Shown in pieces: positions 3,101 through 62,575 of a stretch of DNA of 64,000 bases. This DNA comes from Pegea sp. RAD2-039. Lineage: Eukaryota > Chordata > Thaliacea > Salpida > Salpidae. Each line of letters begins with the position of its first letter. The first letter of the stretch is position 1. The notes under the pieces were generated by a model. The model made no database searches, had not been told where the DNA came from, and was given only the letters and a program-made list of their open reading frames with translations. A program made the translations under genes and the position numbers. The stretch lies in NCBI GenBank assembly GCA_034620365.1, contig JAQGEQ010000322.1, positions 310,001 to 374,000 on the forward strand, given 5' to 3'.

Positions 3101-3309
3101 TATTCTCTCTCACCAACTAACACTTTCAAATCACAATGTTTTCCAAGCTTCTGCTGTTGGTACATTGTATTCATAACTATAGCTGAATAGATGATATCAA
3201 TCTGAAGAAACACAATTATATTTTACAAGTTTAGTAAACTATTAGTTAAATTTCAAAAGATTACTTTTCTGTCACCAAAAATTCCATCAAAGTTTTGATG
3301 CAAAGCCAT
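155..3309 (-). CDS. BTB/POZ and C2H2 zinc-finger protein (14 predicted exons)
   Basis: Likely a nuclear transcriptional regulator. The BTB domain would mediate dimerisation or co-repressor binding and the C2H2 fingers DNA binding; this is family knowledge. Exons read on the minus strand: 3309-3265, 3201-3049, 2862-2707, 2649-2560, 2329-2290, 2126-2084, 1788-1757, 1389-1347, 973-894, 844-806, 752-650, 600-492, 438-379 and possibly 187-155. Phases join throughout, giving about 341 aa. Exons 2-3 carry the BTB core (HCDLKVLVGE, HRCVLAAAS, then GVSYYGFECLVEILYCGKL). Exon 11 encodes finger 1 (CHICGQIF...HAMKTH) and the exon 12/13 junction encodes finger 2 (CLHC...HIRTNH), both C-X2-C-X12-H-X4-H. 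The linker is poorly conserved and spread over tiny exons. The last exon and stop are weak, so the true 3' end may lie beyond the left edge. I cannot name an ortholog. Confidence 0.78.
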
Positions 3310-23410: not shown

Positions 23411-25709
<2,299 letters not shown>

Positions 25710-28700: not shown

Positions 28701-29225
28701 AAGGTTGTCGTTCGCAATTCGATAGCTAACTAGCCAATGTAACAAAAAGAATTAAATGAAGTATTTTAAGAAACCGATTTTTTTTGAGACATTTGTAGTA
28801 CAATTTTTAATGATAATTTAGTGAATAAGTGTTATTGATACTGTACTAAAAATCAGTTTTTAATGTTTAAATGAATGTGAAAAAATGACGTAAAAGTCAG
28901 ATACTTTGATAAATTAATCTTTAAAAAATACTTAGAATTATTATTTGGTTAAAATCTGAAATTTAGGAAGTACCTAGTTTAGCTAACGAGTAAAAAAAGT
29001 AAACAGTTTCACAGTTTGATAAGTTTTATTGAACAGTTTTAGAAACCAGCATAAATTGATAATATTTGATTTTCAAATCATCAATTTTAAACTAATTTTT
29101 TGCCTTTGGTTAAAAAATATTTTGACTTAACTGCTAACGATGTGTTGCTAGGGGTGTTGTTAGGTGATGATCAGTTTAAACCATATTTAAATAAATTACT
29201 AATTTGGAGTTTTGCTTGTTTGGAA
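25710..29225. other. Intergenic GRB2 to TIR gene
   Basis: GRB2 3' UTR (AATAAA near 26252), then 3 kb of AT-rich spacer. Open frames at 25971-26162 and 26601-26789 are F/L/K-rich low-complexity reads without family signals. The only distinctive sites are two TGACGTCA palindromes near 27.7 kb. Confidence 0.5.
27681..27739. promoter_or_regulatory. Pair of CRE-like TGACGTCA sites
   Basis: Two perfect TGACGTCA palindromes (27681-27688 and 27732-27739), 51 bp apart, in otherwise AT-rich intergenic DNA 1.5 kb upstream of the TIR gene. They match the CREB/ATF consensus. The word is over-represented across the window, so a promoter role is only inferred. Confidence 0.35.
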
Positions 29226-32200
29226 ATGGGAACAACAGTTTCAAAACAAAATAAAAAAGTTGTTTCAAAAACTTTGGAAATGGATAAAGTCGCAATAGAA
29301 GGTAATTGATTTATAAAACGTTTCTTATAATTATTGAATATGAACCACCACTGTAAATTGAACGCTTTAATAACTTACGTCAGAAGTTATCCATAACTTT
29401 GAAATTTTGTTTCTAGTCAACTTAAAAAAAGATGAAAAGATTAAAAGCCAAGCGAAAGAAATCAGAAGACTTAAAAAAGAAAATGGAATGCTAAAAGAAG
29501 AGATAGAACTTCTCGAAGAAAGACTTGGTCAACATGACGATATGATTACTTACCTTGAAAACTCAGCTCCTGATAAATCAAAGGCGAGAAAATAATTTAA
29601 AATTTTTAGTTTTTTAATTGATGATTAGTTTCAATAATTTATATCAATCAGAAAACGGATCGAATTAAAGACTTGAACGATCGTAATTTACCTGAAATTG
29701 GTGACCCTGTAGTGTCGATGTGGTCCTCAAGTATGTGGCAATACTTTACTGGTAAGTGACACTTTGATTGAAATCAGTCATGCGTGAATTATAATCTTTT
29801 TATGTTTTGCCATTTTCGTTGTAAGTACTTTCTAGCGTCAACTCTCGGAAATAAAAAAATTCTATCAACTTTTTTGAAGCTACAATTGAAAGTTTCGACC
29901 GAAACACACTTCGTTACACAATTGATTGGGACGATAACGACCCAACTGGTCGAGAAGTGGACTATTTCAATCTAGCTCTTGATAAAGTACCATCAGAAGA
30001 TTCAGTAGCGGTGGGTTCAACTGTTCTATTCCATCAAGGAAGGTAGATATTTCTTCTATTGATCATAAAATATCAAAAAGAAGTTTTTATGATTCAGTAA
30101 ATAATCAAACCTCACGACTTCGATAAAATCCAATTTGACTTTAAAACTATTAGTACACTGATGTAGTTGCTCACACTAACTGCCAGGTTTTTTTGCTACA
30201 AACTTCTTTTAGCTTTGTTTTGTTGGTCAAGGAGCTGAAGTCAACTGGCTTCTGCAGGCGTCTCAATCCACTTTTTCCGATTCACAGATCTGATCTTTCT
30301 TCAGGTACAACGCCACATTTATTCAAGGCGTGAGCAGAAGTGGAGGTCTTCGTTGGCATCAAGGGGTCATAGAAAAGGTCTCGACTGCTCCAGATGGATA
30401 TAAATCGTATTTTGGACGTCACACTAAATCTGAAGCAGATGGTAAATGGATCACTTATAAGGTGCCCCAGATTTTTGCCTCTGTGACGTAATCATCACGT
30501 GACTCGTTCAGGATTACAACCTCAATTTTGAAGGATATAAAATTGAAGATTTAAGGATGCCACCAAATGTTTTTGACATTCTGGTGGAAGATGAAGGTTT
30601 GTTCAATCTTTTACATGATGATGTCACAAATCAGTGACGTCATAGATGATGAATCTGATGATGAAATTGAATCTCATGACGTCTACATCTCTTACACGAA
30701 AGTAAACAGTCCTTCTGCAATCGCGAATGAAGAAGTCCGGGAAGATCTTCCTCCTTCGTATGAAGAAGTGGTTCTGGAAGATATTTGTGATCCACGAGAC
30801 ATAGCAAAGAGTCTGAAAGATAAAGGAGTGAAAGTGACTAGTATGGAAGATGAAGAATATCTCAGGATCGTGGGCAAATTGAAGAAGAGTAAAGTTTTCA
30901 TCGCGTGTCTTAGTGATGAGTATGCAAGCAATGAAAGATGTAGAATGGAGTTTCAATTTGCAAAAAAGACTCTGAAGATTCCAGTGATCCCAGTTGTGGT
31001 GAGAGAGCTCTTTCAGAATCATTGATTCTCAATCTTCTGTTGTAGGTTGGAACCAATTCATTTCAGTGGCAAATGACTGTTGTGGGATTACTAATCGCTG
31101 GTGATCTCTACATCCATTTTAAAAATAAAGATGTTGAAGATCTGAAGATGTTGGAGCTGTGTAAGGCGCTCAAAGAGCTCCTCCCGGAGTTACAGATCGA
31201 AGGAGTCCAGCATCTCGCCACCGGTGATGCTAAGATGTGTCTAGAAGTTGATCCCAAAAAATCAATTACAGGTCTACAGCGACATCTAGTGTCAAAAGTT
31301 AACTTAAATACCTCTTCAGGAAGAGAAACAGCTCAGGGAGGCTCTGATCTCTTCTTCAGTTATTGCTGGGCAAACTCTAAAGATTCTTTCGAGCGTAAAG
31401 AGATCTCTGAGCTCCACGGACACAAATTCAATGACCCTCGGATGTTGCTGAATCAATTGAGCGAGAAGACAGGGATGAGATCTTGGATGGATGTAGATCG
31501 ATTGAGTGGATCAGATGAAATGGGATTGGTTAGTTACTGAGTCTTAGGAAGTTTCTGATTGGTTGTTGATAGTTTGGGCAGATTGCTTCAGGAATCACAT
31601 CTGCGAAGATAGTCGTTTGTTGTGTGAGTTTGGAATATGCAAATAGCGATAATTGCCGGATGGAGCTTCAATTTGCAGTGAAGTCCCTAAAGAAGCCAAC
31701 AATCGCCTTGATAGTAGGTGAGTGGGGCGTGTGAGGGATTATTTTCAAATCAGGGGCACTTTTTTTTATAGGTGATTCGGATAAATGGATTCAGACTTCA
31801 ATTGGGAAATTGATCTTAGAAAAGATCCCGTTCTTTAATCTCTTATCAATCTCCAATCAGCAACAATTAGATGACGTCATCACTGATATTACGTAACAGA
31901 CATACAAATATAAATCAGAGAGTTAAAGTTGTGACGTTACAGCTGTGAGATGACGAAACAATTGAAGGAAGCGGATTCAAAGAACCAACAACGCCCCAAA
32001 CATATCTTCCGTGCCCCTGTTAAAGGAGATCACGTAATCTGTTTACATCGCGATTGGGCGTATTACATGGCAACAGTCGTTGCCTTCGACGAAGCTCTGA
32101 TGTCATATACAGTTGATTGGGATGATGGAGATCCTTCTGGAAGAATCCAATCTTACCAGGTGAGAGCATCTTCCAATCAATCCACAAATGATCTTTAGTG

Positions 32201-32637
32201 AGGATCGCAAATTACAACAAATTAGATTTTTGTAGAAGTTTTCTAAATGATTTTTAGGATTTGGCTCTGAATAAGATCCCGGAATCCGATAGTTACATTG
32301 GGATCGGGACGACTGTGCTCTTCAGTCAAGGAGCATATTCAGAGACTGCTGGTAATAATATAGGAGGTGTGAGGTTTCATCAGGGAAAGATTACTGAAAT
32401 ATCAACAGATGAAGTTGGAATTATAAGGTTTGGGACTTTTTTATCACTTTGATTGATCTTCATCTTCATCTTATTTGTAGATATAGTGGGAGACATAGTA
32501 AGAATGAAGCTGATGGCAAATGGATTAGCTATAAAGGATATGAAGAAGAATTCTTCAACAAGCCAAGAGAAGAACTTAGGCTTACTCCAAATGCAATGGA
32601 TGCTTTGATGGCTTGCAGGAAACAATTTGCTTTATGA
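29226..32637 (+). CDS. Tandem-TIR protein with duplicated WDD (Tudor-like) modules
   Basis: Exons: 29226-29301, 29417-29583, 29652-29751, 29880-30042, 30305-30461, 30512-30596, 30646-30998, 31046-31528, 31573-31717, 31772-31892, 31943-32159, 32258-32427, 32481-32637 (797 aa). The start is the first in-frame ATG and gives MGTTVSK, a good N-myristoylation signal. Order: coiled coil (about 25-80), module A (about 90-245, with TIDWDDNDPTGR and SEADGKWITYK), LPPSYEEV, TIR-A (DVYISY to IPVIPVVVG), TIR-B (DLFFSYCWA, SWMDVDRLSG, ALIVG), module B (TVDWDDGDPSGR, NEADGKWISYK). Both TIRs keep CRME, the position of the catalytic Glu of SARM1-type NADases. TIR-A lacks the W-x-D BB-loop strand. Intron 2 seems to use a GC donor (29584). 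Reading through the intron at 31893 would stop after TIR-B. AATAAA follows at 32653. Likely innate immune or NAD-related signalling at membranes; this is inferred. Confidence 0.82.
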
Positions 32638-34467
32638 TCAGTTTGAAAAATTAATAAATTAGATTTGATAAAAAATATTTTAGAATATTCTATGCAAATG
32701 TTTATCTTGTAACTGATCTACGAGAAATAACTTGTTTATAAACACTCGTGTTCTTTTATTATTGGTTTAACAATTTTCACAATTTATGAAATCGCCAAAT
32801 ATTTTTATTAATTAATAATCAAGAATATTTTTTTGGTTCACTTTTTTTATAGTAACTAAAACAGATTAAGTTTATTACCTTGACTAGAAAAACTTTGTAG
32901 CCAGCAAACAAAATTTCAAATAATTTTCGTGTTTAATGGTCAATGTCAACAGCTACCATGGCAGTCATTATCCTAATACTTATTAAAATTGGCTGAAACC
33001 CGTTTATTAAATATGAGTTGCTGGATACATTTGAAACCATTATACAAATTTTATCGACGAATTTTTTAAGGTGAGGTTACTTTCCAGCATAATAAGGAAT
33101 TTTTGTAACAAATTTGACGTTTTAATGGAATTCTGAAGTTTTATTTCTTTTTTATAAAAACTTTGTTCCTCTTTCTTTAGATATCAAGTTGAAAACAGAA
33201 ACTCAAAATGATACTTTTTATTTGGGAAGAGTTTTTAATTAAGAAAATTAGTCGTATTTTATATCTATGGGTTTTATTCTAGAAGAACTTTTAATGTATA
33301 CAAAGCAACAGTTTGCAAAATTTTGAAATCGGAATGAATTAATATCATTTTCTTTATTGACTTTAAATAACTTTCATTTGAATTAAGTACATCCTTATTC
33401 GAGATAAATTTTATGAATCATTTAGAAAAACGTTTAATTCTTAATCTGAAGACATCAAGAAAATTAAATAAAAACAAATATTGGTTTACTGCAAAATAAA
33501 ACAGTGATATAAAAATTACCTTTTCAAAATAATTGAAAATAATCAAAAAGTATTATAAAGTATCCTATCTGTAAAACAATTACTTTGTAGAAACTGTATT
33601 CTAAACAGTAACGAACAAAAACGTTAAACTGCAGAACAAAGTGTATGCATCACGTGTATGTCTACGCCAGATACAAGTGACATCTACACAAGCGGTAAAA
33701 ATATTTTCTGTTATACAGTTCAAATATATCACATTATAATTTAGTTATTTTCAATCCCTTTAATGTGAGGCTGTTTTTTTACGTTTTGATGTAAATATAA
33801 CTATGATACAATCTGAATACCATATGAATAAATAAATAAATTGATATTTATATTATTCAAATCAATATTATTATAAAAGTATTTGTTTTTGAGGCATTAT
33901 GTAATTAAACAATAATGACTTTGATCTATATTTCTATAAAGTGTTTATGGTTTAAAATAATATAAAAAAAGTAATCTTATTTATTTATCTAAATTAATTT
34001 TACTTACTAATTAGTATGCTAAACTTTCTTAAATTAAATCATTTAAACCATTTTGATTGCATAAATTGTCTTATATACATATCAAAAATCAATTAGTTTA
34101 AAAACTAACTGTAAAAATATTAAGTAATTGTTGAATGAAATAAGTAAAATCTCTAAAATGTTCATTATTCAACAAAATATTTATTTATTTTAAAAATAAT
34201 TTGTTAAACTGATTTCAGAGATATAATCAAATTTTAAATTTAAATTTTCCTTTTTTTATATTTAATAATTGAACAATGAAAAATACTCTTGTAATTTATA
34301 AATAACAGAAACTGATTAGGCAATATTTTTTTATGTAGCTTGTGTGTTCGCCTAACATAAGAACTTTGGATTGTAATTCCAACAAAACAATTTTAATTCT
34401 CTTCTCAATATCTACTTGAAAACAACTTGGTAAGATCCAACATTTCAGTTTGAAAGCCTTTGTAACT
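32638..34467. other. Intergenic between convergent TIR and integrin-like genes
   Basis: Contains the AATAAA of the TIR gene at 32653-32658, 16 nt after its stop. The rest is AT-rich. I searched the minus strand for FG-GAP repeats, stalk or transmembrane exons that would continue the integrin-like gene and recognised none. The open frame at 34296-34514 on the minus strand overlaps the proposed last exon in another frame. Confidence 0.5.
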
Positions 34468-37093
34468 TCAACCGAAAACTTGACGTACAGATTTATCTTG
34501 TGCTTGGCGGTCAACAGCGTTTAGAAGATTCACAACTTCGTAAAGACCCTGTTTTAACGTTGACGTAGTGATATTAAGTTTGGATCAATTTTGCAGCTTA
34601 TAAAGACATTAAAAGAGCTTTTTGATGATTCATTAAAAACTGTAAAAACTTAAACTTAGCATAAATTATGAAATTTATTTACTTACTTGAAATAAATTCG
34701 GAATTTGTTGAAGTCTGTCGATTCTTGCCGGACTGAAAGGACGATCTTTCCAGCTCTCTCACACTCACAATCACACACATAACTCAATTACTTAAATAAA
34801 AACAATTCTCAAACCTTTGTAGTTGCAGATGAAGTTCCAATTTGAGCGTATTCAAGATTGTAAATGACAGTTGAGTTTGAGTCATTTATTCCTGAGTATA
34901 AATATAAACTGAATTATAAAGAGACTGGGTCGCAGTTAATATTTGTCTTAAATAATGCTTGGCTAAGTTGAAAGTTATGAATTAAAAAGTAGTATACCTT
35001 CAAGGTTCATTGACATAACTTTATTTTGTAAACTTTTTAAAATCCTTTTTAATGATATAAACTTATTAACGTAGAAGTATCGGCTGGTGTCGTTGTTGGT
35101 TATAGTCTAGATAAAAAAAAATTCAGAATTATTAAACAAAACTATTTTTTCAACTGTTTAATAAATATTTAAATTTGGAATATTTAAGTTTGAAATATTT
35201 AAATTGTTTATAATTTGTTAGTTTAAAAAAATTTTTTAATTTTAATTTTTTAAATTTTTTGAAAATTTTAGTTTAAAAAGTTGAATAAAGTCATAATGGT
35301 GGTGTTACTTGGGAGTGGATACTTACCATTAGTTCGTCTATAATTACATTACCCACTCCAACAGCAATGGTTGTAATATTCAATGATTTAAGATAATTTG
35401 AAGTTTGCGGTAAATATTGTGAATCACTCGATCTGTCATGAAATTTTAATGTTAACAAATTTAATTTTTAAATTTTAATTTAATGAAATTAAGTTGGCAA
35501 CTTACGCCCCATCAGTTAACAAAATAAGAATTTTCACTGTCGATGATAAATTATATCTATAGGAAGATTTAAAATCTTCAACTGTTTTATTCAAAGCATG
35601 AGCTGTGTAGGTAGTGAAATTATGAAGAGTGATTTTTTGAACTGATTCCTGTAAATGAATCATTTAAATAGAAATATAATCTTTGATGTAAATCAATTAT
35701 TACGTTAAAGCTGGAAAAATTGCTTATTTCATTTAAATTTATTTCTGTTTTCAAAAATCTTTCGCTTTCACTTTTAGTGTAGTTCTTAGCTTTGCTGTAA
35801 ACATAGAAAGAAAACTTGGTTAGAATTTAGAAACAGAAAATCATTTCTAATAATTTCTTACGTTGAGTAGAAGTAATGTGAATACTGGACTACTCCAATT
35901 TGCGTTCGATTGTTGTATTTTAAAAATGAATTTGCGAAAGTACTTATCCATTTTTTAACTGTATTAAAGTTGTCTTCGCCAACAGAATTTGATCCATCCA
36001 ACACAAACATTATATCCATAGGAAATTTTTTTATGCATGTATACTCTGTGCAATTCGATTTATAAAATTGTTTACCTTTTAAAATATATTTTATTTCAAC
36101 TATTTTTTCAACTTTCATTACAACTAATCAGTTCAAATAACACCTGAGAAATTATTTATATAATAAACTATATTATTATGAGAAATAAAAAATCAAGTTA
36201 CAATTGTAATATGCAGAAGAAGAAAACTTGAAGCTCTAATAGATATTATTAGAATTTTAATCGAATTTGTAAACAGATAAATTTATGAAAATCTTCAATC
36301 TCACCAAAATTTCCATTTCTTTTTTCAATCTGCCAACTTTGCTTCTTGCGAAAATCTTTACGATTATAACAAATTCCTGGCAACATTTTCATTCCAGCGC
36401 AATACTTAGGCTTTGTAACAGAGCACACCTGTAATCGAATCAATAAATCTAAATAACAACTTTTTCAGCTTAAGAAAGAGTTTGAATCAATTTATTCTAC
36501 AATTTTGTGAAAGTTGAAACTACTTAAAAAGTTATCTACCTTTTCACTTTGATTGAATGGTTTTGAAATGCTTAATCCAAAGTTACCAGTAAAAGTAGTT
36601 TGCGTCTTTGTACAAGTGTGTAAAACATTTTTAGACATTTTAAAATACTTTTTATTCACTTTACATTTAAACAGTCCATTTAAATCTGCACAACAATTGA
36701 AACATAAATTAATAAAATATAAGTGAAGTTTAAAAAGTTATTCATAAATTCTGAGAACAACTCTTCAAACAATGAACATTTAAATTGCTTCTTATAAAAT
36801 TGTTCACCTTTTTTTGATTGCTCTGGCTTTTTCGGGGCACCAACTATTAAGGTTCTAGAAGTTAAAAAGATTTTCAATTAAAAATGAAATTATATAAAAA
36901 GTGATTATATCATAAAAATGTCTTACGTATTATTCAGTACAAAATCATAACCAAAATAACGACGTATTTTAATGCCTTTTCGTATTGCAGGAAGTCGAAT
37001 AATTTTTGTAGTATTTTGACGAGCTTCCAAATTAAACGAAAAGGAAACAGAAATTAGTCCCGACAGTATGAAAAATAAGCCATAGAGGTTCAT
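34468..37093 (-). CDS. Short integrin-alpha-like protein with I (VWA) domain
   Basis: Exons on the minus strand: 37093-36927, 36854-36808, 36685-36540, 36428-36305, 36045-35862, 35794-35704, 35648-35506, 35432-35327, 35106-34998, 34891-34815, then weaker 34755-34687 and 34548-34468 (447 aa in all). A signal peptide (MNLYGLFFILSGLISVSFS) precedes FNLEARQ and RRYFGYDFVLNN...TLIVGAP, the hallmark start of the alpha beta-propeller. Further propeller text includes GNFGLSIS and PGICYNRKDF. The I domain follows: MDIMFVLDGSNSVG (MIDAS D-x-S-x-S), a Thr in TTYTAHAL, LLTDGA, TIAVGVGN and the terminal Glu in NLEGIND. Family knowledge: a cell-surface, metal-dependent adhesion receptor paired with a beta subunit. 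Oddity: no remaining propeller blades, stalk or TM. The tail ends VRQVFG. Skipping the last two exons gives a stop at 34811-34809. It could be a secreted form, a fragment or a decaying gene. Confidence 0.72.
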
Positions 37094-43588: not shown

Positions 43589-46500
43589 ATGTCACTATCA
43601 GACGATGAGGATAACACAGAGGTGAGAATATTTGCTATTTTAACTTATGTTTTATTCTATTTTTTAAACATTGGCAAACTTTACATTTTTTAATATAAAT
43701 TTTTGAGTAACTTGTCAAGAATTATAAAGTCAAGTTAAAAGGTTGATAAAGATAGATGTAGCTATCATCTTGACTTATAAAAACAGTCAGTTAACTTCAC
43801 TCAGCCAATGAAGATGAACTTCATATTAACATAATCTTGCACTTATTGATTAATATTTTTAGGAAGTTTCAAATTATTTCCAGTAAATCATTCACAGGAA
43901 AATTTTTCTAAATAGATTTGTCAATAATTTTTCTTTGTATTTATGGTTTCTTTGTTTGTATTAACCATAAACATAGCTAAGTTTTTGAGTTTATTTATAT
44001 TTCAACATCAATATACAAAAGTATTTATTTCTATCAAACTTTTATATGTTTTTATTAAATTGAGTCCTCTGATATTTCAGTTTTTATTCTTTTAATTTGA
44101 TTATAAATACTAATTGAAATATACTTTAGAGCTTGTAAGATTATATTTCAATCCAATTTACATTTTTTTAGATTGATCCTATAATTTCTGCTTTAAGAGA
44201 TAAAGCAAGATCTGGGAACGGAACCGCAATTTTTTCAAGAATTCAAAACCTAAAAGGAAACGAATCGAAAGACGGAGCATCCTCAAGTACCAACGGTATT
44301 GAGCGGCAAGCTGAAATTCAAGCCCTTATAGAAGCTGCGGGTTCATTAATTTTTTAGTTTTTTTCTAGTGGATTATTCATATTTCTTATTGAATGTTTGA
44401 AATGAGTAAAAGAATAATTCAATCTTTATGTTTTTTATAAGGTATTGGAACTTTTTCCACCTCCGACGGCAAAAAAATTACTGACCCAGGAGTCTTACAT
44501 CGGATATGTTCATCTGTTTCAGGCTTAGAAGAAGCAGCATCTAAATCCAGAGTTGAACCCCAGACCTCCGAGTCCAGCCAAGACCGGTACTTCAAACCAA
44601 CCAATCAAATTACTTTTTCCTTTTCTAATTCCAATCCGATATTCACCAACTTCTTTGCAGAACATTAGTGGATGCCTGTAATAAGCGAGATGTTAGCGCA
44701 GTTAAAAGCCTACTAGCCTCTGGATGGAGTGCTAATGAAGCTACTGATGATGGTGAAAGCCTCTTATCTTTAGCTTGTTCATCTGGCCAGTACGAGCTAG
44801 TAGAAGTGAATATATATTTTATTTATTATTTCTAACTAATTACATTTCTTATTTTCTGCTGAAAGTTTAGAGATTAGAGTTTCTAGTTGTTTTTTTAGCT
44901 TTTTTAATTACTTTTAGTCTATTTATTTATGAACGTGAACAAATTCTGATAAAAATAAATGAAGATATTTTCTAATTCAAATATTCTTACTTATTCTTAT
45001 GCTGTGGTGGGGAGTCGTTTATTTACTGAGTTTATACAAATTGCTCACTGCTTTTATGCTTTTCAAAAGTGCTTCAAAACCTCCTTAAACGCTTTATCAG
45101 TTTTTTAAATCTAATAACTGTGCTGAAATGACAACTTAACTAAAAAAACGACATCAAAATACTCTTATCATATTTTCCGTAGCTTTTTATTTGGTGATTT
45201 TCTTGAAATGTCTTTCAACTATTACAACCACAAAGCTTGCCCCTTAGTGCCACTTCACAGCCTTGCATGACTTCAAACCACATACCTACCTGCCTTCCTG
45301 CATGTATATTGCTGAAATTAACTTGGATTTGAGTTGCTTCATCACCCAGAACTTCTATCGTCTGTAATAGGCTTTATTTTATATAGGTTTTGCTTTGTAT
45401 ACCTCCATTTGCTGATGAGAGCAAATACCTTACTTCACCTACTGGCAAGGATCTCCGAAAAAAACTCACCGCAGATTATTTAGAACTTCTTAAGTCTCAA
45501 CTAACACAGGCACTTCTTTCTTTGCTTTCAACTTATTTTTCTTCTACCAACAAAATTCCTTTTAATTGTAAATAAAACTGAAAACCCAAGTTGATAGGAG
45601 GCAAACAATTTTATGTAAATTGTTTACCTTTAAAACATATGGCGACCATAACTTCAAACCCCACATGAACGTCATGCTTGATCTAACCCGATCTCATTTG
45701 CATAGGTGCTGTTACAGCATAATGCAAATGTTGAAGACTGTGGAACAAAAGGTGAATGTACCCCGTTGATGGAAGCTGCTTCTGGTGGTTACGGAAGTGT
45801 TGTTCAATTGCTATTACGTCATAATGCTGACGTCAACGCCACCTCAAGTACCGGTATGTATGTCCAAGTGTCCAGCTACTGTTAGTTGACGGTTTACTGT
45901 CCAGGAAACACCGCACTTACCTACGCTTGTTGTGGTGGTTTTGTCGATGTTGTTAAGATTCTAATCGACGCCGGAGCCGATCTTGAAAGCCATAATGAAA
46001 ATGGACATACACCTTTGATGGAGGCGTCCTCGGGTGGCCATGTCAACGTTGCTGCCCTTTTACTTGATAAAGGGGCAGGGATTAACACCTCATCTACTGA
46101 ATTTAAAGAGTCTGCCTTAACCCTTGCCTGTTATAAAGGTTTGTTGCATCTACTTTTGAAGTTTATGCTTGATGGTATCACTTAATGATTCTTTTCTTAA
46201 AAATCTTTTTGTACATTTTTTAAATTGACATCAGCTGATTTTAAACAAATTTCTCAAACCATCGACTACTTATTTATAGAAACTTTTTATTGTTTATCTT
46301 TTCACAAGCTGATAACTTGCTATTTTTTTTCTAATTAATTGTGTTTACTAACACCTTAAAGTTTATTTTTGATTTATAACTTGAGGGCTTGTAACAATTG
46401 CAACAATCTAATAATAGTTTCAACAAATATATCTTTTTTAAACTTTACTGCTAGCTAATAATCTACTTAAAAATATTCAATTAAGCAACACTAATGCTAA

Positions 46501-49500
46501 TGATCGAAAGTTTGATTAAGAAAAGTTTAAAGCATCAAATTTGTAAGTTTATATCTATGTGTAGTTTTAAATAATATATTGCTCTTCAAATGACATCATT
46601 ATTATTGTCTATTTTCTTATTTTCATTTTTAAAGTAATTAGGATAAAATTTGCCGACTAAATCAACTTTTACAGATCTTCAATACAAGTTATTAAAAGTC
46701 TTTAGTTGAAGAGTTGATCTATAAAAAATCTCTTTCTAGTTTTGTACTTTGTACTATATGTAGAAAAACATTTTTAGAAATCTACTAAATACTTGATTGC
46801 CATCTCTTACTTATCATTTACTTTTGTTTGAAATCAAACCATCTACTGGTTTTCATCGAAGTCTTATCGTCAACTCTCTACAAATTTCTAACAATTAATC
46901 TTCATCTAATTGATATTGAATTGAAGATCAAGTTTTATAATAGAAGTTTGAAATTAAATATTTAAACGACATAAAAAGTGTATTTCTTCCAACAACATCA
47001 CCTTATATACGTCAATATTTTCATTTCTTCACCTGATCAAACTGTATAAATTCCAGGGCATCTTCCTATGGTCAAGTACCTGTTAAGAGCCGGCGCTGAC
47101 CAAGAACACAAAACTGATGAAATGCACACAGCCCTAATGGAGGCTTCCATGGTCAGTTCATCGCTCCTGTCCACCATACTGTGGTTAACTGTGGTCTGTT
47201 TCACAGGATGGTCACGTTGATGTTGCCAAACTACTACTGGACTCCGGGGCACAAGTTAACATGCCTGCGGACAGTTTTGAATCTCCTTTGACGTTAGCTG
47301 CTTGTGGTGGTCATGTCGAGTTGGCTCAACTGCTAATTGCACGAGGTGCCGCGCTAGAAGAAGTTAATGATGAAGGATACACCGCTATTATGGAAGCCTC
47401 TAGAGAGGGCCATGAAGAAATGGTCTCCTTGTTGCTGTCCAAAGGTCAGAGGTCCCTGAACACTTGTCTGGGTTGCTTACTTTAGTATTTGAAGGTTGTA
47501 ATGTAAACGCTAAGACGGAAGAGACGCAGGAAACTGCTTTAACATTGGCATGTTGTGGAGGGTTTTTAGAAGTTGTTGAGTTGTTGGTAGATGGTGGTGC
47601 CGATATTGAGTTAGGTTCTTCAACTCCACTGATGGAATCCTCACAAGAGGGTCAATTAGAAGTTGTGAAATATTTAATCGGCAGAGGTAAGATCATGATG
47701 ATGAGCGACAGGCGGTGATGACGTGGTGTTTCAGGTGCTGACGTAAAAGCGACAACAAAAAGTGAAGATACCGCACTCCATTTCGCTTGTGAGCAAGGAC
47801 ACACTGATATTGCTGAAGTATTATTGTCACGAGGTGCAGATATTGAAGCAAAAACAGAATGTGGTCGCACACCTTTAATGAAGGCTTCTCGCGCTGGTCA
47901 TCTCTGCGCTGTTCAGTACCTTATAGGACGAGGTAGATGATCACGTGACTGATTCTAATACTAATGCGTTGTGATTCAGGTGCAAATGTAAACCACGTGA
48001 CAAACAGCAACGATCATTCAGTCTTATCACTAGCTTGTGCTTTTGGTCATACGAATGTTGTAGAAACCCTTCTATGTCAGGGGGCTGATCCCCTTTATAA
48101 GGTTTTATCTTTAAAAATTTATTTTTATCACGTGATTAATCTGTAATCAGTAGACTGATAAGCTTTAAGTGTTTGTTTAAAATGTGGTTCTTTAAAAAGT
48201 GTTTAAGTTGGTGACCAACAAGTCACTTGATCCTCATCACTTGTAGATCGTCTCCTTTCACAGAATCTTTTCTATTTCAGTTGAAAGATGATTCCAATAT
48301 GTTGATAGAAGCATCTCGAAACGGTCACGTGTCAGTAGTCAGATTACTTCTGGAGTTTCCTGAAAACTATGTGGCGGTAACCCCCGAAAATCAACAGGTA
48401 ACCAACAACAACCAATCACATTTGTAACAACTCCTTCAACAGTCTGATGGAATCCTCCATTCATCTTGTGATGAGCATGAAGATCAACTAAACAATCTTT
48501 CTCCTGGATTCCAACTAGATTCAAATAGTTGTGGGGAACAAGTAGATCCACAATTCACTCCCCAAGCAGATGGATGCGAAGAGGTGTTCCTGGAACATAT
48601 GTCTGAACAAGGTAAGTGAAATTCCATTTGATTACATGCTAGATACTATCTCACTTCTGTAATTATTGTCAACTTATTTTTGAATTCCAAACCAAGTTTC
48701 TATGTTAGCTGCTGAGGTCGTCAACCGACTCATCCGTCATGGAAGCGTGTTAACTCAAACAGCAGAAGGGTATCTTCCACCAGCAGCAAAAGAAGAAGTT
48801 GAAAGTGACATCACTCTCCAAATAGAAAACTTCTTGAAAACAATGGCGAAAGATCCAAATGGTCAGTTGGCATGGAGACTTGAGATCAATTGAATCTTGT
48901 GTTCGTTCGTTGAACTAAATACTTTGAATGCGTTTTGTTTTCTATTTTATTTAGTTGTTCTTGCTCTTGTTGAAGGCAACTGTAAAGAGTTGGAATCTCG
49001 AGTGATGAAAGCGGTCGAGAAACAGTTCTACGCTTTATATGGAGATCGATCACCGGTAATAAAAACTCCTCACTAAATTGAAAATAAAATCTTCCTAATA
49101 TCTTGATGATGCTAGTGATGTAAATTCCCGGTTAATTAGAATGTAGTTTTCTGATGTCTCTAAATTTTTAATTCTTTAATTAGGAGCTAATGAGGAAAAT
49201 TCTCGATGAGAAAAATAAAGAATATGAAAACCGTGGTGGGTTTACTTTCACGCTTATCATTTTTACGTTTAATTTCTCATAAAAGTTATTTATAATTGTC
49301 TCATTCAACTAATTATGACTTATCTAACGAATTGTTGCTGCTATTTATCAGGTAACCCTGATGGTGGTGACCAGGGTTTTCTTCCAGTTGAAGTAAGTTT
49401 TTATTTAATTGTAGGATGTTTTTGTGGCTTCAACTACTTCAATTATATCATTTAATTGAACGTTCTACAGACCGCTACTCCACCAACAGCCTCCTATACC

Positions 49501-52500
49501 TCAAGTGAAGAGAAATTAGGTGAGGATAAATAGTTTTGTTTTTCCACGATTACAAACACTCTGTATAAAAAGTTTACTTTTTTTTGTGACATCTGTTTTT
49601 TTTTTCAGTTAACTTGGTCGAGCTGAAAGCAAATTCAAAACATGTTGGTATTTTCAACGTTCTGTCTTCCACTTTACAAACTTATTGTTTTTATGCTAGG
49701 TTGGAAATGGAGACCATTTTGAACCAAACCCAAGTTTTCATGTCATCAACAATGGTGGGTACTTTTGATAAATACCAACAAATTATTTAACTCACAAATC
49801 TAGTTGATTACTGCTACTGTTGCAAGTAAAATTAATCCTAATGAAATGAGAAAAGTCCTTTTTAAGTTTGCTCATCTTCACAAATAGCTCAGTTGATATA
49901 ATTTCAGTTCACTTAGATTGTTTAGTAGAAAATATTTCACTAAATTTGTGCAATCTCACACAGACTTGATTTAATTGATATTTCAACAAATTCTTGATGA
50001 TTAGTTAGTAGACAAGATTTGAAGATAGATGTAAATTTGATGAGACATATTTGTGTAGGTACTTCTGGTGGCTGTGTTTCACAAGCTCAAACTGAAAATG
50101 ACACGGATTATTGTCAATGCAACAAATTGACTTGTACAAATTCACCTGGTAAAGGTAGTTGAGTCTTAGTGTAGTGTTGTGAAACCAGCTTTGAGGGCAT
50201 TTACATCATTAGGAGGCAATTGAGATCTTCTTATTAATTTATTTATTTGTTTAGAAAATGAAGACATAGTTGCATCATCTTCTGAATCTTCATCTCGACT
50301 TCTTGTTCCTAATTATCGTCAACCTGATGTAGATGCTTGTACCGAATCTAACCATGATACTCCTCTTACCCTAGCATGTGCTGGTGGTCACGAAAACCTG
50401 GTCGATTTATTATTGTTAAAAGGAGCAAATATTGCACACCGGGATAAGAAAGGTCATTTGATTATTTCAAAAGACTTCCTCATCTAATCATCTCAACCAG
50501 GCTTCACACCCCTTATTCTGGCGGCAACTGCGGGTCACGTGATCGTTGTTCAAGCGCTACTAGAGGTACACGCTGATATCGAGGCCCAGTCCGAACGAAC
50601 TAAGGACACTCCCTTGTCATTGGCTTGTTCTGGTGGCAGAGTTGTAAGTTGGTTGTTATAGTGACAGCCATCAGCAGTCAACTTGTAAATTTAGGATGTA
50701 GTCGAAGTCTTACTTCAACACGGAGCTAATAAGGAACACAGGAACGTTTCCGATTACACTCCCTTATCTCTAGCGGCATCTGGTGGTTATGTTGTTATCA
50801 TCAGACTTCTACTTACTCATGGTGCTGAGATCAACTCTAGGTGAGAGCATCGAATGATCTGAGGTGACAAACAAGTAAATTATGTTGGTGTAGAACTGGA
50901 AGTAAACTCGGCATATCTCCTCTTATGTTAGCTGCTATGAACGGTCATGCCCAAGCTGTCCTCTTACTCCTGGACATGGGAGCAGATATCAATGCCCAAG
51001 TACATTATTTGAGGTCCACCTTGTGTTGATGGTGACCACGTGTCTGTTTACAGATTGAGACCAATCGCAACACAGCATTGACGCTTGCATGTTTTCAAGG
51101 ACGGCATGAAGTCGTCAGTTTGTTAGTTGATCGGAAAGCAAATGTAGAGCATCGTGCTAAAACCGGACTCACCCCATTAATGGAGGCTGCTTCAGGCGGT
51201 TATGCTGAAGTTGGTCGAGTCCTATTGGACAAAAATGCTGACCCCAATGCTGCCCCAGTACCTTCATCTCGTGACACTGCTTTAACTATTGCGGCAGATA
51301 AGGGTCATTTCCGGTTTTGTGACCTCATACTGACGCGGTAAGTTGCATATTGACTCAAAGTCGTCATCGCCACCTGGTGGTTGGTTACAGAGGGGCGCAA
51401 GTTGAGGTCCGTAATAAAAAAGGGAACACGTCGTTGTGGTTGGCGTGTAATGGTGGACACCATGAAGTGGTCAAGTTGTTGGTCAATAAGGGGGCAGATG
51501 TAAACGCGGCGGACAATCGAAACGTGACCCCTTTAATGGCAGCGTTCAGAAAAGGCCACATACAGGTGATAAGTCCTCATACTTGCCACATTTACTTCAT
51601 CGGTTTGTTTGTGAGCAGGTGGTCCGGTTCCTGGCAAATGTTGTGTCACAATTTCCTTCGGAAAACGAATGTGAGAGGTTTATTGCGAGTGTGAGTTCGG
51701 AAAAGGACCAGGAATTGAGGAATTTGTTGCAACAATGTAAAGAATGTATCGAACAGTCAAAAGCTCGTCAAGCTGAAGCTGCTAATAAGTTTGCTGCAAA
51801 TCTACTAAAAGAAATTGACCGTGAACAAGTCAGTTGATGATGTGATGATCTGTTGGTATTAATTTGATGTTTTAAAGGTGAATGAACAACGAAAGAAGGC
51901 GAAACAAGCGAAAAAACGCGAGAAGAAAAAGTTGAGAAAGAAGAAGAAGATCGCGAAAAAAAGTGAAGAAGAAAACAAGAAAGGTTAGCAGCTCCTCAAA
52001 CACCTCGTCAATTACCACGTCATGTGCTTACACAGATAGTGAAGTTGGTGTAGAAGATGTTGAAGAAAATATTGCTGAAAGTAGTCAAGTAAATTCAGAT
52101 CAAGTTAGTGAAGATGTCGCTGATAGTGCTTCGCGTCTTGTTGCTACTGACAACGACGAAACGCCATCTTCATCTCCATCTACTCGCACGAGTAAGTTGT
52201 TCGTTGATGACGTCATAACCACGCGATGACGTCATTTCTATAGAAAAAGAACGTCTACCGACTCCTCCAATAGAAGACATCATTGCAGCAGCTCCTCCAC
52301 CAAAGACACCTCCTCCACCAAGGACACCCCCTCTTAGATATGAGAAACCTCCCAGAGTAGCCAAGTCTCCTGTTTCTAGGGCACTCGTCAAAAAACTCGA
52401 TGAAAGTCTTCGATCTTTACGTCTCGAATCCAAACCTGTTGACGTCATCACCAGGTTAGTTGTTGAAGCTTCTATTTCAGTTGATGACGTCATACATCAG

Positions 52501-55500
52501 TAGAACGGAAGTTTCAAAATCGAACTCGCGAGTATCATCCACCTCTTTATCGGCATCTACGCGTCTCACTCCTTCGCGATCCATCCAGAGTCCCAGCAAA
52601 CGGAACCAGCGTCGCGAAGAAGGTTGGAAAGAAGTTGCCGCTAAAAAATGCTCGTCGAACGGGTAAGTTGAGTGGTAGTGACGTCACACAGCTAACGCGA
52701 GATTTGATTGTTAGATTAAAGTTATTCGTCAACTCGCGACTCGTGTCACGTTTGATTGGTCGCGCCGGATGTAACATTAACGCGATTCGAGAAGCGACTG
52801 GCGCTCATATCGATATCGACAAGCAACGAAAAGGAAGTACCGAGCGAACTGTCACTATCAAGTAATAGCGAGTTGGTTGCCGTGGTAACCATCGATTAAA
52901 CGCGCGATGTTAAACAGGGGTAGTGTGGAGTCACAAAACCACGCGTATAACCTCATCACAACCATTATCAGAGAAGACGGCTGCGACCAAGATGTTCAAT
53001 CAATCATCACGAGAAGCTTAGCGATGAATCAATTAAATGAGAGACCAAAAAATCAACAGAAACCATCAACTCACGTCCAAGTCATCGCCGCCCCAATCCC
53101 AACTAAATCAGCGTGGAAAGTGCCCCCTGCAACCTCCTCTAAATCTGTAATCCTAATTTGTTGTCGTGTCATTTGTTGGGGATTATTTAAAAACGAGCAT
53201 TTTGTTGTAGATTGCACCTTGGGTGATGTCATCATCTTCATCTTCTTCTAATCGTAATATAACAACTCCTTCAGTTGTTTATACAAACAGCAGTTTGAAA
53301 ACTCATACTTTTGAACCACTAGCGCCACCTACCGGTTAGTATCAACTACATCATCATCTCATCATTAAAATATTTGTTACAGAGACAAAAACAAGTGAAA
53401 AAATTGTAGTTAACAAAGAAGACACATCAAGAAAACTGTTATCTGTCGATAGTTCTTCTGATAATGTTTCTGAAACTACATCAATTGGTTACGACCAACC
53501 ATCACCATCTGAAACCATTTTATCATCACCTATTACAACACCAGATCATCCACCAAACTCTTTAAACCAACCAACAGTGATATTACCGAGTTCAGCTACC
53601 ACTATTTCGCACAATATTTTTACCAAACCAACAAAATCACCAGAAAAACCAGTACACACAGTTGCACCTATGATTTCAAGCAAAAACTTGGTCCGTTTGT
53701 CCTCTGTGTCAACGCACACACCTACAACATACTCCATGTGTGTCACTCTATCAGGCAGTGATGATACAAGTCCTTGTATCTCATCTTCATCTCTGCTTCG
53801 TTCAAATGATGATGTCTTGTCAAAAACTCATCAAATCCCACTGTTACCATCTTCACTTAAACCTACTGATGTTAATCCGTCAGCTAGTAACCCTATCATC
53901 GCTAATCTGACAAATGCTTGTCCTCAATTTGATACAAGGAAAATCGAAGCAGAGAACGACTCGCGAAACGCTTCGTTTGATAATCTCACCAAAGTCGAAG
54001 TAAACAACAAAATGGCGTCGCGATCGATGAATCGTTTCATTACTGATGTCCATTCGAGTGAGTATTGAGAATTAGCCGACTTTTTGCTTTTATTTTCCCG
54101 CTGAATTTGTAGCTGGCTTCCCTACAATTGATGTGCCGACGACAACGAATGAAAGTAAGTTTGGAAATTTCTATCCGAACAGTAACCAGCTTTGTTGGAG
54201 TAATATGAATACTATCAGTCGAGGTAAGTTCACTGAAGCGGAACACGTTGATTTGTAAAATGATTTGTGAATGATTCAGACACAATTGCATCTGATTCAC
54301 AAACTTCTGAAAGTAGTGAGAATGAACCAAAGCCTCAAATGAAACCAATTGGAAATGTTAGTGGACACCATATTTGACGTATTTCTATTTTTTCATCTTC
54401 TACTTCTTAGGAACGTCGTCAGAATATCAAGATCTCAGCTGCCACCTCTACACCAACGTCAATGGTACGAAATCCCATATGGCCCAGTTATGAACCAGTG
54501 AGTGCCTGGTCACCGGACACGCAAACCAACAACAACCAAACCGCACGTCCAACGTCCACACTTTCACAATCACAAGTAAGTTTTCTACAAAATCTCTGAA
54601 ATTGATGAAAACCAAACAACAAATTGCTAATCAGATAATGTTAGCTGATGTGTTACGTAACCAAATACCACCTCAGAACAATGATTGTCGTAATTATCTG
54701 CCAAAACATTCTGTGGAAATGAACTTCTCTCCATCACAAAGTAATTATGGCCCAATTGGAAGTGGACTGGGTCGTGGTAATCGAAATAGTTTGATTCATC
54801 ACAAGCAATTAAACCATCATACATCGAATGTATTACCAATTAACAACCAGTACAACCACCAGTACCGTGCTCCACCACCAGCTGGTTACACGCTGCCTGT
54901 GAGTAGTCACGTGCTTGCTTTTTCAACCAATCAATCGTCGATTTACAGATCACACAACATCGAGAACAAACCAGCAACGCTGTTCATAAAATGCTTTCCT
55001 ACCCCATGCCCCCTCAAACTATCTCCCAGATGCAACGATACCCTACTCCACCTTCGTATGAATACAGCAACGATCATTTCTCACAATATAACCTCTCCAA
55101 AAATACAGCAAATCCGTCTAGTAGTAACGATGTAAACTGGCAACAACGAGCTAATTATTCCCGTAATAAGATGCTTCCACATCAAACAGTAAGTATCAAT
55201 CTGTAATCATCAATTATTTATGTAAGATTTTCAGGAAATGATGCCAGCTAGTATTTATCCGAAGATGCAAAACCCTCCTAATGGAAGTGGTGCACGAGGA
55301 AGCCAACCACCTTACAACCAGCTTGAAAGTTACCCGCCTCTTTCTCAAGACACTAATCTCTTCCCTGGTCAGTCAAACACCAGCTACGTGTCGCGTGAAA
55401 ATCCAATATTACCACCCCCGTCTCATTGTAATGATAATGAAATGTATATGCGAAGTGGTACAGGCAACGCAGCTCCTAACCAGGTGAATAACATGTGGAG

Positions 55501-55714
55501 ATCTAACTACCGCCTTCCTTTTACAATCAACCCAGGTGATTGAATCATTCAATTATTCTTTAATCATAACTTCATCTATTTACAGAATCATTAATGAACC
55601 AGCACCGTCAAGAAAACCCAGAAGTAAGCCAGGTTTCTACATCATCAAATCCATATTCATAATTTCTAATTTCAGTCTTGGAAAAATACCAACAGTAGCT
55701 GGTCGTTGCAGTGA
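43589..55714 (+). CDS. ANKHD1: Ankyrin-repeat and KH-domain protein (Mask family)
   Basis: Large scaffold and RNA-binding protein. In flies and mammals Mask/ANKHD1/ANKRD17 acts in receptor tyrosine kinase signalling and as a Yorkie/YAP cofactor. I trace 44 exons from ATG 43589 (MSLSDDEDNTE) to TGA 55712-55714. Phase is preserved at every junction and the total is 6906 nt (2301 aa). Ankyrin block 1 covers about aa 116-612 (exons 4-12, 44661-48397; for example GNTALTYACCGGFVDVVKIL and FESPLTLAACGGHVELAQLL). A helical and acidic spacer follows. Ankyrin block 2 covers about aa 867-1287 (exons 22-28, 50255-51828; for example NRNTALTLACFQGRHEVVSL and SSRDTALTIAADKGHF). Then come a K/R-rich linker, REEGWKEVAAKK, and the KH domain at about aa 1500-1560 (LVSRLIGRAGCNINAI, TGAHIDIDKQR). 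The rest is a Ser/Pro/Asn/Gln-rich tail. Exon 19 ends at 49643, not at the nearby GT at 49648, because only that keeps frame. Orthology to the single invertebrate Mask is clear. Confidence 0.93.
45387..45575 (+). other. Candidate alternative terminal exon of ANKHD1
   Basis: Inside intron 4 (44806-45705), after the acceptor TTTTATATAG, a frame opens in phase 0 with VLLCIPPFADESK, starting like the normal exon 5 (VLLQHNANVED). It runs 62 codons to TAA at 45573-45575, which overlaps an AATAAA signal at 45571. Use of this exon would end the protein near residue 226, inside ankyrin block 1. No transcript evidence. Confidence 0.35.
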
Positions 55715-57420
55715 ATTCTTGAATGAAAATCCTCTAACTGCCGTCTGCCATATGATCTTTTGTTCATCAAATTGCTGAGTAAATCAGCATCATCAGCATG
55801 ATGTTTTGATGACCACTTTGTTTCGTCCTTTCATGCTAACAACTTTGAAAGTCTTCTGTATGTCACCTGTTACATCTGTGTATATATCTTGATAACTTTC
55901 AGCTAGATTATTATTTAGTTCGCAAAGCTCCAGCGTGGTGTAATTACTGATCACTTGCAAACATTGGCAGAAAGGTGGGGCTAGTGATGCTCTTATTATA
56001 TATAAATTTTATGTTGTCTTTATTTTATTGTTTGAGTGTCAGTTACCAGTTTCTTTCTCAATATGTTACAACCAGTTTTTCTTCTTTTAGATATAATGTT
56101 TTATCTCTTCAACTACCATTTGCATGACTTTTATCATCAACTTATCAAGTAGATACTTGTGAGATGATTTAGCTACTGTTTGCAGACGTCAATAGAGCGT
56201 TTGTGTAATGAACTATCTTGTGAGAAGATCTTATTATTTGATCATGCATACAGGTGTTTCTCATATTTCTGTGTTAATATTTGAAAAGTTTTCAACATCA
56301 GATGATTTTTTTTGACACAAAGAAGTGGATAGTAAGAAAAATCGGATAAAAATAGCATCAATTAGTAAAAAGTTAAATTCCATAAATTATTGAGATGTCA
56401 ACTAATTTTGAAATTTTAAAAAAAAGTATTTTTATATTCAAAATATCAAACTTACAAAAATAACTCTCAAAACTCATTTTTCAAATTAATTTTTTATCAA
56501 AAATCTCCATTAAACTCGTGATCTTCAGCAGCTGCAAGCCATCATTCGTTTGGTTTCTGGGGATCAGACTAAGAGCCAGCAAAAGTTGCTGATCAATTTT
56601 AAGAAATTAATTGTAAAAACTGAGTTTGGAAAATGTGTAAACGGATTATCTTGTACATTAGCTCATTGTACAAGTTTCTTTGCTGCCAAAAAATACAATG
56701 AAGCTTATCATTGATAGAATAAACATTTCTTGTAATCCATTATATCCATTAAAAGAGTTAAAAAATATTCAAATAAAGTTTATGGAGGCTTCAATGTAGG
56801 CTTGAAAATACAGGTAACCTCTCTGGTTAGGATTGAGCTACAAAAAATTTGTGTGCAAGATTTTTAAGTTGAAAAAAAGTATTTGAAATAATTTTAAAGT
56901 TTATCAAATTACTATAAAGTTGATTATTTTGTTACTACAATTGTGAATCTGTCCGATTAGCGGTTTTACCGCAAAGATTTAGATTTCCAAAAATTAATTT
57001 ACAATTTTTACCATCTATTACAATTTTATGACTATAAATTATGCTAGTAGTAGGCTGCATGCCACTCAGCTTTTTATTAGTATGCCTACATGTGTAGCTA
57101 ACAGCAAAACTACTGACCAGTCCTGTATGACCATCACTAAGATACATCTAGAAGGTGTTTGACTAATTTAAGACAAGGACACTTTAAAACAGAGAAATGA
57201 TAAGAAACCGATATTTATGGAAGCAATTTCATTGTAGAACTTCCTCAGAAATCTGAGCAAATTATTAAAGTAATCATGGAGTAAATACTTCACTGTGTGT
57301 CGTTGTAGATCTTGTGAATATAAGATGTATAAAAGACAAGTTTTTTCAGCTTGATCTAATTAACAGAAGTGGTTTGTTGACCAAATTTCTTTTGTTCTTT
57401 GCATCTCATTGTGTTTTGCT
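55715..57420. other. Region downstream of ANKHD1 with orphan exon-like blocks
   Basis: ANKHD1 3' UTR, then three coding-like blocks on the plus strand with splice-like borders. About 55919-55975 reads FAKLQRGVITDHLQTLAER. About 56187-56251 reads TSIERLCNELSCEKILLFDH. 56529-56714 is described separately. Their phases do not join simply. The remainder is AT-rich. Confidence 0.35.
56529..56714 (+). other. Orphan terminal-exon candidate with half a CCCH finger
   Basis: After the acceptor GATCTTCAG an open frame of 61 aa starts QLQAIIRLVSGDQTKSQQ and contains GKCVNGLSCTLAHC, which resembles the second half of a CCCH zinc finger (C-X5-C-X3-H). It ends with TGA at 56712-56714, and AATAAA follows at 56718-56723. 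It looks like a last exon, but I cannot join it to an upstream gene. Confidence 0.35.
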
Positions 57421-61449: not shown

Positions 61450-62575
61450 CTGCTGAGTATAAAAAAATCTTTCAAAAGTTGAAGTGATGTATTTTAACTT
61501 TACTCGAAATATAATTTTTCTTTGAGTAATTGCGAATTTTTACCACAAAATAAAAATGTTGATGCAGTATGTATTCAAGAAAGCATATTAGTTTTCTAAC
61601 TTATTGACATAAATGTTTAATTAAAGCCCGATTTTGTTGCAGGAGATATTTTACATTTACATTATACACTTAGATAGTCAATTTTCAAAAACTATTCTTT
61701 GAATTATAGATTAAAGTTTATTTAAACGTTTATTTATATTTCATTCGAAGCATGATATCTCTTATAGCGAAAAATACAAAACAATATGAGCTGAAAAATA
61801 ATGAAAAGGTCTTAAGTATCACAATTTATCACAGTTAAGATAGAAAGAATAGAATACTCTAGAAGCATAAGCAAAATATAAATTGTGATTTAAAAAAAAT
61901 TGGTGTAACCAAACAAGTGAGAAAACTGGCAGTGTATTTATATCACTTGTTAAGTAAACTGCTTGGGTCATTAAAATAATTTTTTAAAGAAGGGATTAGT
62001 TTTGATGTAGTGATAAGGTCACCCTGGTAAAAAGCTGTTGCTCCAATTGGTGTTAATAAAGTTGCTGGTTTATTTTCCTTAAAGATTTTAGTAGATGAGT
62101 ATAATTCACGATAGAAAAAAGCTGAAAAAAAACTTAGTAATAGGACAATTTAGAAAAGAAGTATACACTTTTAACTACAAATGTAAACTAACAAATAACA
62201 TAGAAATTAACAAAGATAATAGCAACATTTTCATGTTAGTATTATAAAAAAAGTTTGATAATGTTGGTTCATGCATATATTCAAATTAAAAGTCTGAAAA
62301 AATGAATTATCGACCAAATGTAAGTTGTTTTTCGTAGTAAATGCAATGGATTAAAACGTTTGTTTAAATTGAACTCTTTTCAAAGACATTCCATCAAAAA
62401 TATGCTGAGGTTTTAGCTTAATTGCTGAATATGAATAATTGATTAGTTATATGGTTTTAGCATCATGTAAAAAAACAAAAAAAATGAAATAAAAATTTTG
62501 TGCAGTAGATAAAAACTCTGAGTTAAATAAATGAATGTCTTCAAAGGAGTACCATATGAAGCATATTAATAGAAT
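61450..62575. other. Intergenic spacer
   Basis: Pseudokinase 3' UTR, then 1 kb of AT-rich DNA up to the 7TM-like gene. No gene or repeat recognised. Confidence 0.5.

Follow-up and report, generated by a model that had tools for sequence, protein, structure and literature searches.

The window, i.e. the whole 64-kb stretch of DNA analysed, contains a gene that joins a pair of TIR domains to a module with a seemingly Tudor-like first half, and probably to a second copy of that module on the far side of the pair. On the forward strand, 13 exons can be spliced together to give a single open frame of 797 amino acids, which starts with the ATG at 29226 and closes with a stop codon ending at 32637. 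The order in the joined chain is a charged N-terminus, module A, TIR-A, TIR-B and module B (Table 1). Our analysis shows the parts and their order as far as TIR-B, subject to the assignment of intron 2 as GC-AG. An earlier note, made from the letters of the window, had proposed a 13-exon single chain. The open frame of 797 amino acids agrees with this proposal, whereas the join between exons 10 and 11 is insecure owing to the weakest donor of the gene, a stop codon and an ATG located there.

Table 1 Features of the TIR gene in window coordinates
Feature	Position	Strand	Remarks
Exons 1-2, N-terminus and charged segment	29226-29301, 29417-29583	+	aa 1-81; joined frame
Intron 2, likely GC-AG, 68 nt	29584-29651	+	in-phase donors to exon 3 are GC sites, none GT
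Module A, exons 3-6	29652-29751, 29880-30042, 30305-30461, 30512-30596	+	aa 82-249; first half apparently Tudor-like
TIR-A	30646-31192	+	aa 259-416; exon 7 (30646-30998) and start of exon 8
TIR-B	31337-31892	+	aa 465-617; end of exon 8 (to 31528), exon 9 (31573-31717), exon 10 (31772-31892)
Doubtful junction: intron 10 (50 nt) or space between cistrons	31893-31942	+	weak donor; TAA on read-through at 31894-31896
Module B, exons 11-13	31943-32159, 32258-32427, 32481-32637	+	aa 618-797 if one chain; otherwise a separate gene from the ATG at 31950
AATAAA poly(A) signal	32653-32658	+	3' of module B

Exon structure and N-terminus

Eleven of the 12 introns are of the GT-AG type and intron 2 is probably GC-AG. 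Introns 5-10 and 12 measure 44-54 nt, and the remaining ones 68-262 nt. The assignment of intron 2 follows from the frame. Exon 2 would have to join exon 3, because the first in-frame ATG of exon 3 comes only after the P-x-x-x-G-D-x-V start of module A, which is common with module B, and because exons 1 and 3 do not fit together in phase. As exon 2 offers three GC sites in phase with exon 3 (i.e., 29452, 29566 and 29584) and zero GT sites, intron 2 is likely GC-AG, given the frame and the conserved start of module A. The donor at 29584 reads AAAG/gcgaga (the slash marking the end of the exon), and its AAG/GCGAGA is the best fit among the three to the usual GC-donor pattern. Among the Ciona KH gene models, 556 of 113,879 introns are GC-AG according to the available text of PMC2760879.

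The N-terminal residues MGTTVSK fit the N-myristoylation pattern, as judged from a pattern match. A coiled coil had also been claimed for the N-terminus, and the evidence for it turned out weak: as many as 913 of 5000 shuffles attained the same heptad a/d occupancy, which is thus not significant, and the Pfam coiled-coil matches all remained under their cut-offs. RNA families numbered zero in the 64-kb window.

The duplicated module and the TIR pair

Modules A and B are 45% identical over their aligned stretches, and W29, Y31, W50, D51 and D52 (alignment numbering) are invariant in both. This likeness is not a matter of chance, as module B employed as query retrieved module A at E-values of 1.1e-12 and 2.1e-9 from the genome of 105.7 Mb. 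The duplicated module of the earlier note is thereby confirmed. At E up to 10, module B found itself and module A (5 places) and module A found itself and module B (7 places), in each case on the same contig. No further copy of module A, module B or TIR-B was found in the 105.7-Mb genome at E up to 10, in a search that scores the best candidates only, exon by exon, and may miss small exons and distant copies. The conservation of the same motifs in both modules at this level of identity, together with 797 codons in 13 exons without a stop, argues against decaying or mis-assembled pieces in place of a working gene. The weak donor at intron 10 and the GC donor at intron 2 would fit such a scenario, which we nevertheless regard as extremely improbable.

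The first half of each module (lobe 1) appears Tudor-like, on modest evidence. The Pfam family Tudor_3 matches the whole chain in two stretches with 28.0 bits (cut-off 25.8), while the single modules stay below this cut-off with 18.6 bits (A) and 20.3 bits (B). Over the whole chain, PTM_DIR17_Tudor reaches 27.0 bits (cut-off 27.2) and Tudor_2 19.4 bits (cut-off 31.4). Lobe 1 has the pattern G-D-x-V ... Y ... A-T ... Y-T-[IV]-D-W-D-D in common with Tudor domains, and we take W29, Y31 and W50 to be a possible aromatic cage, going by known Tudor structures. Thus, the W-D-D module described earlier is indeed present twice, but it is not wholly new, its first half appearing Tudor-like. Both modules differ from Tudor domains in adding a second conserved half, lobe 2, which carries E-A-D-G-K-W-I-[TS]-Y-K.

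Searches with larger parts of the module gave little beyond this. By sequence, the best PDB matches to module B were two KDM4A chains at chance level (E 0.15 and 0.3). A profile of lobe 1 yielded a transcriptional regulator chain (E 0.28), the lamin-B receptor (0.47) and PsaE (1.3), and a profile of the whole module only proteasome chains (E 0.59 and 0.87). For the whole module, PDB matches were at chance level only and NCBIfam gave no match above its cut-off. Lobe 2 retrieved nothing from the PDB at E up to 5, and its exon 5 matched Tudor_4 weakly (E 0.1, 12.7 bits, cut-off 25.8). A structure prediction of the first exon of module B alone by AlphaFold2 contained four strands of at least three residues with a mean pLDDT of 45.2, which is too low to use. 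Two suggestions on the origin of the module were discarded. A descent of lobe 2 from lobe 1 by copying received a probability of 0.4% in a profile comparison, a weak test with two sequences per side, and none of the 98 and 83 pattern matches obtained in viral contigs and genome contigs, respectively, was confirmed as a sign of prokaryotic or viral origin.

Both TIR domains, claimed previously as a tandem, exceed the Pfam TIR_2 cut-off of 28 bits, TIR-A with 37.5 and TIR-B with 37.0 bits (66.5 bits in 2 stretches for the whole chain). They are 32% identical to each other, and TIR-B, employed as genome query at E up to 10, hit 4 places, all of them on the same contig and belonging to TIR-B itself or to TIR-A, the latter at an E-value of 3.4e-8. 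At E up to 10, TIR_2 has 9 listed places in the genome, two of which are the gene described here, and six others were found at E up to 0.002 (L011, L012, L013, L015, L017 and L018). Reading of the translations suggests that L011 and L012 are TLRs, L013 and L015 ARM-type TIR proteins and L017 a SEFIR-type receptor, and L019 (TIR_2 E 1.15) looks IL-1R-like. In L013 and L015, which look like ARM-repeat TIR proteins, the TIR starts with M-I-S-[YF]-Q-W. When six TIR pieces were compared, TIR-A and TIR-B were each other's best match with 49-50 bits, followed by the ARM-type L015 and L013 with 12-24 bits, the E-values of such a six-sequence comparison meaning little. An unrooted tree of 6 short TIR pieces placed TIR-A and TIR-B, as a possible clade, apart from the other four with a split support of 0.61.

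At E up to 1, a profile of the TIR pair retrieved seven matches from the PDB. The first is Cat1 at 0.0031, the only one below 0.01, and the other six are chains named as plant TIR proteins or as ADP-ribosyl cyclase/hydrolase at E 0.093-0.52; none is a TIR of a TLR, an IL-1 receptor or MyD88. The single domains gave matches at chance level, i.e. Cat1 at E 0.064 for TIR-B and, for TIR-A, three glycoprotein chains (E 0.22-0.27) ahead of Cat1 (0.42). The structure prediction of the TIR-A exon alone (mean pLDDT 42.2) was too poor to use. Weak PADLOC matches of the ThsB type (TIR-A and TIR-B) and to PD-T4-6 (TIR-A), at E 0.0003-0.005, were set aside as general TIR similarity. TIR-A furthermore has an acidic insertion after its first TIR strand, in which PPSY is found at 30750-30761 (aa 285-288). 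Motifs of this type are bound by WW-domain ubiquitin ligases, and PPSY could recruit one here.

The intron positions bear on the age of the two duplications. None is common to both modules, module A being interrupted after aa 114.3, 168.7 and 221.0 and module B after 689.0 and 745.7, and the comparable introns of TIR-A (after aa 367.0) and TIR-B (after aa 576.3) are displaced by about four nt in the alignment and do not have the same phase. Judging from this, the duplications of module and TIR look old. Copying an M-T block once in tandem (M, module; T, TIR) would not produce the order M-T-T-M. The simplest route to this order is one TIR duplication plus one module duplication, each of which would have occurred at the gene's own locus.

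The junction between exons 10 and 11

The mirrored layout that had been read from the sequence holds in so far as the exons join in frame. It is insecure because a single poor splice junction carries it, and because the genome has spliced leaders and so may have operons. The donor at exon 10/11, TAC/GTAACA, scores lowest of the 12 (leave-one-out score 0.96) and is the only one without G at position -1. Of the 210 GT sites in 29000-33000, 30% score as high, and the donors of introns 4 and 5 are also low (26-27% of the GT sites as good); donor scores from so small a sample are rough, and acceptor scores separate true sites poorly. Alternative in-frame joins, inspected by eye, have worse donors or cut domains. 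Reading on past exon 10 meets an immediate TAA, and the in-frame ATG at 31950 follows 7 nt past the acceptor of intron 10.

These features would also fit a two-gene operon, in which a first gene for the N-terminus, module A, TIR-A and TIR-B stops at 31896 and a second gene for module B starts from the ATG at 31950 after trans-splicing at 31943. The weakness of the donor argues for it, and the succession of a stop codon and an ATG shortly past the acceptor resembles that at a Ciona-type operon junction. Ciona-type spliced-leader sequences also occur in tandem in this genome. The Ciona spliced-leader sequence, followed by GT, had 585 genome matches at up to 2 mismatches, compared to 77 for the reversed control, and contig C4 contains a spliced-leader-like tandem array at ~1135044-1142219 with one unit per ~200 bp. 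By these spliced leaders and by its cellulose synthase-GH6 gene, the genome looks ascidian and Ciona-like. In Ciona, ~20% of the genes belong to operons whose members abut directly and tend to be fused by gene finders (PMC2760879, available text). Weak paired donors are moreover reported, in the accessible part of PMC11155486, for non-operonic Ciona genes that are trans-spliced at their first acceptor, a parallel that applies only loosely because the acceptor at 31943 is not a first one.

Against the operon stands the gap of 46 nt between stop and acceptor, which would have to accommodate the entire 3' untranslated region and contains neither AATAAA nor ATTAAA, whereas an AATAAA lies 3' of module B. 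The gap (31897-31942) does include the variants AATATA (31907) and TATAAA (31909); among random 46-mers of the window, 16% contain AATAAA or ATTAAA and 39% any of 11 variants. Furthermore, cis introns are far commoner than operon junctions in Ciona, with 112,989 GT-AG introns versus 1,310 candidate operons in the text available of PMC2760879. A helix that spans the exon 10/11 join has an amphipathic character, which for two segments was equalled by 81 and 203 of 5000 shuffles. The portion ahead of the join shows this character by itself as well (equalled by 212 of 5000), and the halves on either side of the join have hydrophobic faces that point ~68 degrees apart. The helix seems to be weak evidence either way.

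By our judgement, and not by a computed value in either case, a single chain carrying both modules is reasonably probable, and the operon is a possibility well short of an even chance. If the operon were true, the mirrored layout would be an artefact of two joined genes and a warning that such layouts in tunicate DNA can be two abutted genes.

Possible function and relation to known TIR proteins

With the single chain as the preferred structure, the gene might encode a cytosolic signalling protein of the order N-terminus, module A, TIR-A, TIR-B and module B, for which no close copy was found elsewhere in the genome. We give this explanation as a whole an even chance. An N-terminal myristate would tether the protein to membranes, and the Tudor-like modules might bind a partner, be it a methylated protein or another peptide. 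The modules could either restrain the TIR pair or cluster it, and the clustered covalent pair may then seed a TIR assembly, with signalling either through a scaffold role or through NAD+ cleavage. TIR assembly underlies both scaffold and enzyme signalling, and enzyme TIRs require a conserved glutamate (PMC8635717, in the portion available).

Both TIR domains have a Glu in the catalytic column, i.e. E351 (30948-30950) in TIR-A and E559 (31663-31665) in TIR-B. In the four alignments compared, out of the 7 matches, the Glu of C-x-x-E-L in Cat1, SNC1, AT1G72930 and L6, which in Cat1 and the plant TIRs we take to be the catalytic one, falls on the C-R-M-E of the present domains. SARM1 as well as plant and bacterial TIRs cleave NAD+. 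A corresponding activity of the TIR pair, gated by the modules, would be compatible with either gene structure and is favored by this Glu and by the profile match to Cat1 and, weakly, to plant-type TIRs. However, the same Glu is also kept in the two TLR pieces of the genome, and thus leaves the choice of enzyme or scaffold undecided. The motif of enzyme TIRs is W-x-x-x-E, and the W four residues ahead of the Glu is lost in both domains, where it is replaced by R in TIR-A (R-C-R-M-E) and by N in TIR-B (N-C-R-M-E), no W...E being present in the chain. The BB-loop region of TIR-A is shortened and altered, which also argues against an enzyme. NAD+ cleavage by the pair can hence be put forward only tentatively.

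A cytosolic adaptor that acts through TIR-TIR contacts without catalysis comes close to an even chance in our view. It would resemble the ecTIR-DC proteins, cytosolic TIR proteins of invertebrates that were reportedly described by Gerdol et al. in 2017. By description, these are alike in combining a TIR with uncommon partner domains in proteins that do not belong to the receptor families; the chain here differs in having two TIRs and Tudor-like modules instead of a match to ARM, LRR or death domains. Among the pieces compared, TIR-A and TIR-B are nearest, after each other, to the ARM-type proteins, in favor of an adaptor, while the lack of TLR, IL-1 receptor and MyD88 TIRs among the PDB matches speaks against it. 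Eight of 16 placozoan TIR proteins are of the ecTIR-DC type, for which the available part of PMC6321704 hypothesises an adaptor or regulator role. A bolder proposal is a new class of cytosolic sensor, in which two Tudor-type readers would clamp the covalent TIR pair until a methylated or otherwise marked ligand frees NAD+ cleavage or a membrane TIR filament. We consider this unlikely.

In the literature matches listed, as far as their text was available, no known family with the order module-TIR-TIR-module is described, in line with the earlier note, nor is a TIR combined with a Tudor domain in one protein; subscription papers lie mostly outside this search. A term search in the available text of the Ciona TLR paper PMC12816324 gave neither 'tandem' nor 'two TIR' nor 'cytosolic'. 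To speak of an undescribed signalling system, however, was too strong, as odd TIR combinations are already known from amphioxus, an invertebrate chordate: 20 of its 28 TIR combinations occur in amphioxus alone, and the sea urchin has only about six (PMC2575513, available text).

The joined chain has no Pfam match to LRR, ARM or SAM domains at E up to 1. SARM1 combines one TIR with ARM and SAM domains. The chain resembles it in that TIR is joined to other domains, the Glu column is kept and NAD+ cleavage appears possible, but it has two TIRs and no ARM or SAM match. TRAM/TICAM2 is a myristoylated TIR adaptor; it has the MG-type N-terminus in common with the present chain, in which myristoylation is a pattern prediction, but contains a single TIR and no Tudor-like module. 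Two TIRs per chain are also found in mollusc Toll-2 receptors, which, unlike the chain here with its lack of an LRR match, are Toll receptors with C-terminal tandem TIRs (PMC4929906, as available). In Dictyostelium TirE, a partner domain likewise accompanies two tandem TIRs that have diverged, although RCC1 repeats take the place of the Tudor-like modules (PMC13142454, as available). If confirmed, the present architecture would tie Tudor-type binding modules to TIR signalling in the sister group of vertebrates and provide a natural covalent TIR pair for the study of how TIR assemblies start.

The surroundings of the TIR gene contain several further coding features. Upstream on the same strand, SH2 and SH3 exons at 23886-25709 (+) probably belong to a GRB2-like adaptor. 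Downstream, ankyrin repeats followed by a KH domain at 45886-55775 (+) are probably ANKHD1/mask-like; both names are our reading. The reverse strand carries a BTB/POZ domain exon (2653-3222) and a von Willebrand factor A domain exon (35861-36127). A hydrophobic open frame of 297 aa at 62573-63463 (+), without Pfam match at E up to 0.01, is possibly a multi-helix membrane protein. Elsewhere in the genome, GH6 matches on contig C14 with 27.5 bits, just over the cut-off of 27, and is preceded by a Q-x-x-R-W stretch and hydrophobic segments as in cellulose synthase; among animals, the fusion of cellulose synthase to GH6 is a tunicate feature.
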